Below are positions 1-656 of a stretch of 64,000 bases of DNA, piece after piece. Each line of letters begins with the position of its first letter. Position 1 is the stretch's first letter. This stretch comes from Ginsengibacter hankyongi. GTDB taxonomy: Bacteria; Bacteroidota; Bacteroidia; Chitinophagales; Chitinophagaceae. A program made the translations under genes and the position numbers. The stretch covers positions 186,001 to 250,000 of the forward strand of contig NZ_VYQF01000004.1 of assembly GCF_008710285.1 (NCBI RefSeq), given 5' to 3'. The notes beneath the pieces are model-generated. The model searched no databases. It was not told the DNA's origin and worked only from the letters and a program-made list of their open reading frames with translations.

Positions 1-482
1 TCCCACTCAACCCTTGGCATATCATGACGCTCAGCAGAATGTTCTGCACGAAGGCCTGTGATCCATATTGAATTATCTTTTAGTGCTCTTTTTAGAGGAG
101 CTACTTTTCGTATGTAGCAACAGTCTTTCCTGTTTTCGACAGATTCGTAAAAAGAATTGGGGCCTTTTTCAGCAACAAAATTTTCCAGCGATATGGTATC
201 AGGATAAAATGCCTTTACATGTGTATCGTATTTTTCGTTGGTGGCCCTCCAAACAGAATAAGTTTCCGGGAATAATCTCCCTGTGTCTAATGTAAAAATT
301 TTTATGGGTAGGTGATTATTTAAAATTTTATGACTGATAACCTGGTCTTCATAACTGAAGCTTGTTGAGAAAATTACTTCACCTGGAAATTGACTGGTCA
401 ACGCCAATAGAACTTCATCAATGTTTAAAACATTTGCTGCGTCTGCTATTGATGAGACTTTATCTTTTAGCTGTTGAAACAT
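1..482 (-). CDS. cysH: Sulfonucleotide (APS/PAPS) reductase CysH, 3' end outside window
   Basis: Reduces adenylyl sulfate or 3'-phospho-adenylyl sulfate to sulfite in assimilatory sulfate reduction, in the cytoplasm. I translated 160 codons from the ATG at 482; no stop occurs before the window edge. Visible motifs are STSFSYEDQVI (residues 39-49, nucleotide-binding P-loop-like segment), FTLDTGRLFPETY (63-75) and RKDCCYIRKVAPLKR (118-132). The Cys pair C121-C122 is the first half of the CC...CxxC set that binds a 4Fe-4S cluster in the APS-reducing type. The second half (CxxC) and the catalytic C-terminal Cys should lie beyond position 1, so APS versus PAPS specificity is inferred from the CC pair only. 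A Cys-rich leader ORF lies 74 bases upstream. Confidence 0.9.
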   Translation of the reverse strand, partial: MFQQLKDKVSSIADAANVLNIDEVLLALTSQFPGEVIFSTSFSYEDQVISHKILNNHLPIKIFTLDTGRLFPETYSVWRATNEKYDTHVKAFYPDTISLENFVAEKGPNSFYESVENRKDCCYIRKVAPLKRALKDNSIWITGLRAEHSAERHDMPRVEW

Positions 483-532
483 TTTATTATTAATAGTTTG
501 ATGGATTTATAAAAGAGAATTTTATTGAAATG

Positions 533-567
533 GTTGTTGCTTTATGGAATTAATAATCAGCAACAAC
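533..567 (-). promoter_or_regulatory. Hairpin overlapping the Cys codons of the cysH leader
   Basis: GTTGTTGC at 533-540 and GCAACAAC at 560-567 are perfect inverted repeats; one more T-A pair (541/559) closes the stem. On the minus-strand RNA the upstream arm is the TGT-TGT-TGC run, the last three Cys codons of the leader ORF, so a ribosome on those codons would block the stem. A second weak AT stem (ATAAAA/TTTTAT, 509-525) follows. No GC stem with a T-run is present, so a classical intrinsic terminator is not evident; the regulatory role is inference. Confidence 0.5.
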
Positions 568-622
568 AGGGCATCGAGTTGCCACAATTGCACATATTAA
601 TGAGCGGAAAGAATGACTTCAT
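557..622 (-). CDS. Cys-rich leader peptide (21 aa) upstream of cysH
   Basis: ATG at 622, TGA at 559-557. The peptide reads MKSFFPLINM followed by CNCGNSMPCCC: five Cys among its last eleven residues, ending in three consecutive Cys codons (TGT TGT TGC) directly before the stop. It lies between a Bacteroidota-type -7 element (656-649) and the cysH start (482), on the same strand. Clusters of codons for the pathway product next to a stem are the hallmark of ribosome-mediated attenuation, as in trp, his and thr leaders. Cys-rich upstream ORFs controlling sulfur genes are known in actinobacteria; I do not know of a described Bacteroidota case. The coding assignment rests on composition, position and the overlapping hairpin. 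Confidence 0.6.
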   Translation of the reverse strand: MKSFFPLINMCNCGNSMPCCC

Positions 623-648
623 ATTATTTTAATTCTAATAGTCTACCA

Positions 649-656
649 CAAAAGTA
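649..656 (-). promoter_or_regulatory. -7 promoter element for the cysH leader transcript
   Basis: The minus strand reads TACTTTTG, an exact match to the Bacteroidota primary-sigma -7 consensus TAnnTTTG, followed by GTGG. The predicted transcript would start about 15-20 bases before the leader ATG. No clear TTG (-33) is seen upstream. Confidence 0.5.

Follow-up and report, generated by a model that had tools for sequence, protein, structure and literature searches.

The 66-nt ORF located before cysH in the stretch of DNA analysed here (64 kb, hereafter the window) is probably a cysteine-sensing leader peptide whose readout is not an intrinsic terminator and which, in part of the family, would act on translation. 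The sensing module is supported by conservation of the leader among relatives, and the case for the leader rests more on this conservation than on the statistics of the stem in the window, because the conservation is the stronger of the two. Expression of the operon would respond to cysteine. In some relatives the leader is preceded by a SAM-I riboswitch, and this tandem arrangement is the most novel part of the findings.

The leader ORF and its conservation upstream of cysH

The window carries the 5′ part of cysH (Table 1), whose product scores 267 bits against NCBIfam NF002537 (cut-off 154) and also matches Pfam PF01507. The gene starts at position 482 on the minus strand and is cut by the window edge. 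It heads a cys cluster whose downstream order on the same strand, beyond the window (L004), is cysD, cysN, a uroporphyrinogen-III methyltransferase gene, cysJ and cysI, followed by one further ORF and then a cysG N-terminal/TauE fusion. At L004, CysJ falls under its equivalog cut-off (557 of 668 bits) and the other named cluster genes pass at least one cut-off. By its gene content, the cluster encodes cysteine biosynthesis. Across the cysH promoter, on the plus strand, the window encodes a DoxX-family membrane protein (1094-1543) and a 4,5-DOPA-extradiol-dioxygenase-like protein (1601-2437).

The original prediction for this region described a TACTTTTG promoter and a 21-codon ORF with five Cys residues within its last eleven codons, the final three being consecutive Cys codons, and each of these elements is present in the sequence. 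A gap of 26 nt separates the end of TACTTTTG from the leader ATG, which suggests a short 5′ UTR. The TGT TGT TGC run that closes the ORF is the presumed site of ribosome stalling under cysteine shortage. No match to Rfam release 15 was obtained at the gathering score across the 64-kb window. The genome from which the window derives contains 38 TGYTGYTGYTRA sites, and when all 38 were examined, none of the other 37 proved to be a poly-Cys leader of the window form, that is, a short ORF complete from start to stop, lying outside ORFs of at least 90 codons and directly before a gene. As a comparator, 30 of the 46 CAY4 sites in the same genome were inspected for a histidine leader, and none was present.

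Table 1. Positions of the leader features in the window and of SAM-I riboswitches at the tandem loci of relatives.
Feature	Locus	Position	Strand	Basis
TACTTTTG, TAnnTTTG promoter motif	window	656-649	(-)	sequence
Poly-Cys leader ORF, 21 codons, MKSFFPLINMCNCGNSMPCCC, stop TGA 559-557	window	557..622	(-)	ORF list and sequence
Three consecutive Cys codons TGT TGT TGC, codons 19-21	window	560..568	(-)	sequence
Stem 5′ arm GUUGUUGCU, overlaps Cys codons and first stop-codon base	window	559..567	(-)	fold
Stem 3′ arm AGCAACAAC	window	533..541	(-)	fold
Spacer, leader stop to cysH start, 74 nt, 13 C and 1 G	window	483..556	(-)	composition count
cysH 5′ part, phosphoadenylyl-sulfate reductase, runs past window edge	window	3..482	(-)	NCBIfam NF002537, Pfam PF01507
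SAM-I riboswitch, terminator present	L062	2077-2209		
SAM-I riboswitch, terminator present	L067	2169-2285		
SAM-I riboswitch, terminator present	L068	2115-2228		
SAM-I riboswitch, terminator present	L072	2161-2273		
SAM-I riboswitch, terminator present	L073	2062-2177		
SAM-I riboswitch, terminator present	L075	2109-2220		
SAM-I riboswitch, terminator present	L077	2130-2242		
SAM-I riboswitch, terminator present	L088	1963-2069		
SAM-I riboswitch, terminator present	L129	371-514	minus	
SAM-I riboswitch, without terminator	L298	433-531	minus	
SAM-I riboswitch, without terminator	L299	462-559	minus	
SAM-I riboswitch, without terminator	L301	400-497	minus	

Among 244 genomes of the same family, cysH (E 1e-40 or better) is found in 148, at 149 places, and upstream DNA was obtained for all 149 loci. 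As a measure of the leader we took the maximum number of Cys residues in the last 12 codons of any ATG, GTG or TTG ORF of 7-90 codons located no more than 400 nt upstream. At least four Cys residues were reached at 55 of the 149 loci, or 54 after removal of L206, a false positive in which the ORF lies inside a gene. By the same measure, the reverse strand gave 2 of 149, and dinucleotide shuffles gave 4 of 745. The 54 leaders are spread over 29 of the 68 genera that have cysH, as counted by hand from genus labels. This comparative result strongly supports a cysteine-sensing leader peptide and agrees with the proposal that a cysteine-keyed leader precedes a sulfate-assimilation operon.

The leader is not universal. 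Of 92 cysH 'heads', defined as loci without a same-strand 90-codon ORF ending within 200 nt upstream, 51 have a leader with at least four Cys residues, seven have one with three, and 34 have two or fewer. Examples include the Niastella caeni leader, MFCSHAIQIMYISCCNKYCCCC, and the leader endings ...SCCNKYCCC in Longitalea luteola, ...MATCCCC in Gynurincola endophyticus and ...MMACCCSCFCCCC in Taibaiella chishuiensis. In other families of the order, a leader is present in five of the 11 loci fetched (L294, L295, L298, L299 and L301). The leaders of L298, L299 and L301 end in six or seven consecutive Cys codons, with runs of up to seven in L298 and L301. Outside the order, at the class-level loci, a same-strand gene mostly lies close upstream of cysH, and the only leader candidates are L290 and, more weakly, L307. 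In L282, four Cys residues are reached inside the upstream gene.

A first scan of the Chryseobacterium loci (within L074-L114) gave no comparable leader. At L082, L089, L094, L096 and L102, the upstream frame is the reading frame of a regulator, which belongs to the Rrf2 family in L096. An Rrf2-family gene lies upstream of the cysH operon in L096 (1926-2342), in other Chryseobacterium loci, and in L028, L177, L179, L193, L197 and L204, and such a regulator may provide protein-based control in place of the leader peptide. An Rrf2-like gene is located upstream in 12 of the 149 family loci, one of which also has a leader; these are too few to call the two arrangements mutually exclusive.

The TAnnTTTG motif, which we take to be the −7 promoter element of Bacteroidota, occurs 190-40 nt before the leader stop codon in 47 of the 54 leader loci, compared to 144 of 1080 shuffles. 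By our count, 39 of these 47 loci have an in-frame leader ATG at a distance of 19-35 nt from the motif. The leader is therefore probably the first ORF of its transcript.

SAM-I riboswitches upstream of the leader in relatives

All 92 cysH heads, along with additional loci, were searched with Rfam, and a covariance model of our own, built from 20 Rfam RF00162 hits, was run on 154 sources. The SAM riboswitch scan covered 55 of the 80 named loci, 19 of which were also searched with Rfam, the other 25 being L040 and 24 loci of Chryseobacterium. In 12 relatives, an RF00162 match precedes the poly-Cys leader on the strand of cysH. Nine of these belong to the family and have a clear terminator (L062, L067, L068, L072, L073, L075, L077, L088 and L129), and the other three (L298, L299 and L301) come from another family of the order. 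Two additional loci, L156 and L170, appear to equal L073 and L088. The candidates L290 and L307 have a same-strand riboswitch with weaker leaders, and L174 and L177 have a riboswitch with no Cys leader between it and cysH.

In each of the nine family tandems, a hairpin (−10.7 to −16.5 kcal/mol) that runs into six or more T nucleotides is located 60-73 nt past the aptamer and before the leader. No comparable hairpin follows the leader in these nine loci, the best one before a T-run being that of L088 (−7.0). In L298, L299 and L301, there is no such T-run after the aptamer, which ends only 18-19 nt before the first leader ATG. Because of this proximity, SAM may gate the cysteine sensor itself in this lineage. 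In 12 of 14 cases the promoter motif precedes the riboswitch by no more than 80 nt, and in none of the 14 does it lie between the riboswitch and the leader; therefore, both elements are probably carried on one transcript.

Within the set of 54 family leaders, a same-strand riboswitch is present in a minority (L129, L156 and L170). The SAM-I, or S box, riboswitch that forms the first of the two elements in the tandem loci is absent from the window, as judged with both Rfam and our own model, and from L004, as judged with our own model. Eight more leader loci for which longer flanks were available have no SAM riboswitch further upstream. SAM riboswitches were also observed on the opposite strand, in L031, L118, L128, L138, L139, L143, L146, L149, L151, L154, L172 and L176, where they presumably serve a divergent gene next to the cys operon.

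We lean towards a general picture in which sulfate assimilation in Chitinophagales is controlled by 5′ leader RNA sensors. The poly-Cys leader would be read without an intrinsic terminator, through translation or Rho, and in several lineages a SAM-I riboswitch would act in series with it on one transcript, such that full expression would occur only if SAM and Cys-tRNA are both low.

Readout of the leader

In the mechanism that we propose, RNA polymerase would initiate at TACTTTTG and the leader would be translated before cysH. When Cys-tRNA is ample, the ribosome would pass the Cys codons, terminate and depart. When Cys-tRNA is scarce, it would stall on the terminal Cys run of the leader, and expression of cysH would follow. 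In part of the family, empty leader RNA would base-pair with the region around the cysH start, and a ribosome stalled on the leader, together with any queued behind it, would hold this region open, which constitutes translational attenuation. The C-rich, G-poor spacer would remain unstructured once the leader is occupied. For the mycobacterial polycysteine attenuator, the leader RNA is said to sequester the downstream start until a ribosome stalls.

Start-site pairing was assessed in 72 loci, comprising 51 from the family, of which four have three Cys residues, and 21 named loci that are non-identical around the leader stop. L206, L184 and L147 were omitted by hand, L013, L127, L140, L146 and L164 because they have no usable cysH ATG, and L129 because it has no leader ATG by rule. 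The 72 loci are related, and the effective numbers in the following comparisons are smaller. Translation initiation in Bacteroidota departs from the usual models. The mean energy required to open the cysH start is 6.36 kcal/mol, compared to 4.93 kcal/mol with shuffled leaders; the excess is 1.43 kcal/mol (sem 0.35), with higher values in 46 of the 72 loci. Covering the whole leader lowers the mean to 3.77 kcal/mol. A single stalled ribosome lowers it to 5.38 kcal/mol, which is above the 4.66 kcal/mol of leader-shuffled sequences with the same mask, and full relief of the start would need the whole leader to be covered. The effect is concentrated in a subset of loci: with the stalled-ribosome mask, the energy drops by 2 kcal/mol or more in 19 of 72 (codon-shuffled leaders predict 8.2 and dinucleotide shuffles 5.8) and by 4 kcal/mol or more in 10 of 72 (2.0 and 1.5 expected, respectively). 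When the whole 5′ region is shuffled, the mean is 6.49 kcal/mol, indicating that the free start is not less accessible than in such sequences. This last comparison, together with the single-ribosome result, weakens the argument for a translational readout.

In a test with swapped partners, pairing of leader codons 3-13 with the cysH start is mildly enriched (8 of 51 loci at 5%), and no enrichment is seen for the Cys run. Strong cases of leader pairing with the cysH start, identified by eye, include L035, where codons 3-13 pair with the start codon region, and L163 and L119. In L064, L134 and L148 the Cys run itself pairs beside the cysH start, again by eye. A separate observation concerns L145, L146, L149, L151, L154, L138, L139 and L128, in which the leader start (TTGATGG or similar) complements a CCATCAA-like sequence near the cysH start. 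As seen by eye, this pairing forms a long-range closing stem in several genera.

In 30 of the 72 loci, including the window, the start already opens at 5 kcal/mol or less. The window start has an opening energy of 1.7 kcal/mol in all states, and since it is predicted to be open in every state, the pairing model does not explain the readout there, which may instead use the Cys-run stem or Rho. We read these predictions as translational attenuation in part of the family, with the rest possibly Rho-dependent.

Termination by Rho is the main rival to translational attenuation, and we consider it possible although rather unlikely. The same cysteine leader would be used, with the spacer serving as a rut-like site when ribosomes leave the leader quickly and being covered when a ribosome stalls at the leader end. 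The composition of the spacers is in keeping with this proposal, with C and G fractions of 0.236 and 0.120 compared to 0.170 and 0.172 upstream, and with C exceeding G in 52 of 54 leader spacers as opposed to 15 of 34 cysH heads that have no leader. In the window, the spacer excess of C over G (12) is beyond that of all 30 control gene heads of 74 nt each taken from the window (largest 11, mean approximately 1.3). Furthermore, the pyrimidine fraction in the 30 nt past the leader stop is 0.63-0.68, and the genome encodes Rho. However, the spacers are mostly short (36-74 nt in 44 of 51 loci) for a rut site plus a release region. An excess of C over G also avoids structure, as exchanging C and G makes the leader fold more stable by 4 kcal/mol on average. 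Moreover, there is little or no skew in the long spacers of the tandem loci of the other family (C/G of 26/41 in L298, 37/26 in L299 and 28/23 in L301). We favour translational attenuation over Rho-dependent termination.

Classical transcription attenuation, in which an intrinsic terminator competes with an antiterminator and the Cys-run stem is one of the alternative hairpins, is improbable. The window does contain a stable 9-bp stem in which GUUGUUGCU pairs with AGCAACAAC, as had been predicted, although 17 nt rather than 19 separate the arms. The 5′ arm (567-559) overlaps the three Cys codons (568-560) and takes in the first nucleotide of the stop codon. Folding of the local 69 nt gives a z-score of −3.77 (50 shuffles), and the duplex between the Cys run and its downstream partner is equalled by 4 of 100 shuffles. 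For the whole 177-nt leader, the z-score is only −1.52, and 12 of 200 shuffles fold as well. In the nearest relative, L035, whose CysH is 83% identical to that of the window, the stem recurs by eye with one U-A to C-G exchange and one pair lost, and L036 retains part of it.

The comparison of cysH upstream regions that had been suggested as a check recovers the ORF among relatives but not a stem conserved across the family. In the 54 leader loci, the Cys run pairs with its own spacer no better than with shuffles (mean z −0.26; seven of the 54 rank among the best five of 100) and no better than with swapped partners (mean z −0.11). With pairing at the level of both controls, the stem is not a shared switch, and a conserved switch stem is rejected as a family feature and is not supported as a general mechanism. 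The stem is real in the window and L035, and a switch based on it would be local to the nearest kin of the window.

The T-run expected of an intrinsic terminator is also missing after the window stem, as originally observed in support of a non-classical readout, and the window spacer has no terminator-like site. Such sites occur between the leader and cysH in two of 72 loci (L158 and L160) compared to 4 of 360 shuffles, which is the chance level, and an intrinsic terminator after the leader was rejected as a general feature. In addition, the nine family tandems have a clear riboswitch terminator before the leader and none comparable after it. Since the same mRNA carries such a terminator, these bacteria use this type of element when it is needed.

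It is very unlikely that the ORF encodes a functional small peptide, for example one that binds metals or thiols, rather than a disposable leader. Cys clusters of the CCCC or CCNKYCCC type can in principle bind metals. However, the peptides share little beyond a common Cys cluster near the stop codon, varying in length and in sequence, and the ORF is placed between a promoter motif and cysH. Among 14 close leader pairs, 42 differences fall in third, 37 in first and 30 in second codon positions. This mild bias fits a leader whose product is unused, and is also weak evidence of coding. Finally, the likelihood of a chance ORF in an AT-rich intergenic region is negligible, because although short ORFs abound (the first 8 kb of the window contains 103 with 20 codons or more), this explanation is contradicted by the conservation of the leader, its controls and the promoter-motif counts.

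Relation to known attenuators and implications

The closest parallels are the polycysteine leaderless short ORFs of mycobacteria, which are cysteine-responsive attenuators (Canestrari et al. 2020, as cited in the relevant passages of PMC9031893 and PMC13236596) and were preceded by a prediction of mycobacterial cysteine leaders (PMC1262725). As presented in these passages, they likewise have consecutive Cys codons near the stop and are located upstream of cys genes, they lack a conserved terminator hairpin (PMC1262725), and downstream translation is the proposed control point. The mycobacterial ORFs are leaderless, whereas those described here mostly have their ATG 19-35 nt past a Bacteroidota-type motif and are probably not. 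The present leaders also differ in belonging to another phylum, in having cysH as the first gene and in the addition of a SAM riboswitch in some relatives.

The uORFC-8-2 motif of Rhodobacterales, found upstream of cysS, also has an upstream ORF with tandem Cys codons that lie within a stem, according to the section of PMC8632094 that describes it. It precedes a tRNA synthetase gene and has a terminal U-run that fits an intrinsic terminator, whereas the leaders described here have no terminal U-run or terminator, have longer Cys runs and precede a biosynthetic operon. Attenuators of the trp and his type similarly place a leader ORF rich in codons for the end product of the pathway between the promoter and the first gene, but in those systems an intrinsic terminator follows the leader.

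Within the same phylum, leader-peptide attenuation has been inferred upstream of amino-acid operons in Flavobacterium psychrophilum, where pheA and hisG are among the conserved structured 5′ elements; the section of that paper on leaders does not mention cysteine or cysH (PMC9723704). Leader-like short ORFs have been noted in Bacteroides (PMC7366714, in the part cited). According to the portion of a 2010 report cited here, Proteobacteria and Actinobacteria were, ermC aside, the only groups in which leader peptides had been demonstrated until that report added a case from Firmicutes (PMC2965389). Tandem attenuators with two short ORFs are known from mgtCBR of Salmonella (PMC3641672, likewise in part). 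Among the matches listed in a search of the open-access literature, as judged by titles and abstract openings, there is no description of a cysteine leader in Bacteroidota, consistent with the original statement to this effect, and none of a cys operon that carries a SAM riboswitch and a leader peptide in tandem.

Cysteine leader attenuation, described in the cited portions of the literature for Actinobacteria and Rhodobacterales, is now extended to a large environmental group of Bacteroidota. That no terminator follows the leader, in mRNAs with a textbook example a few dozen bases upstream of it, turns its readout into a concrete question. The tandem arrangement would be a two-input gate on a single sulfur operon, in which SAM reports on the methionine branch and Cys-tRNA on cysteine, and its two arms can each be tested separately.
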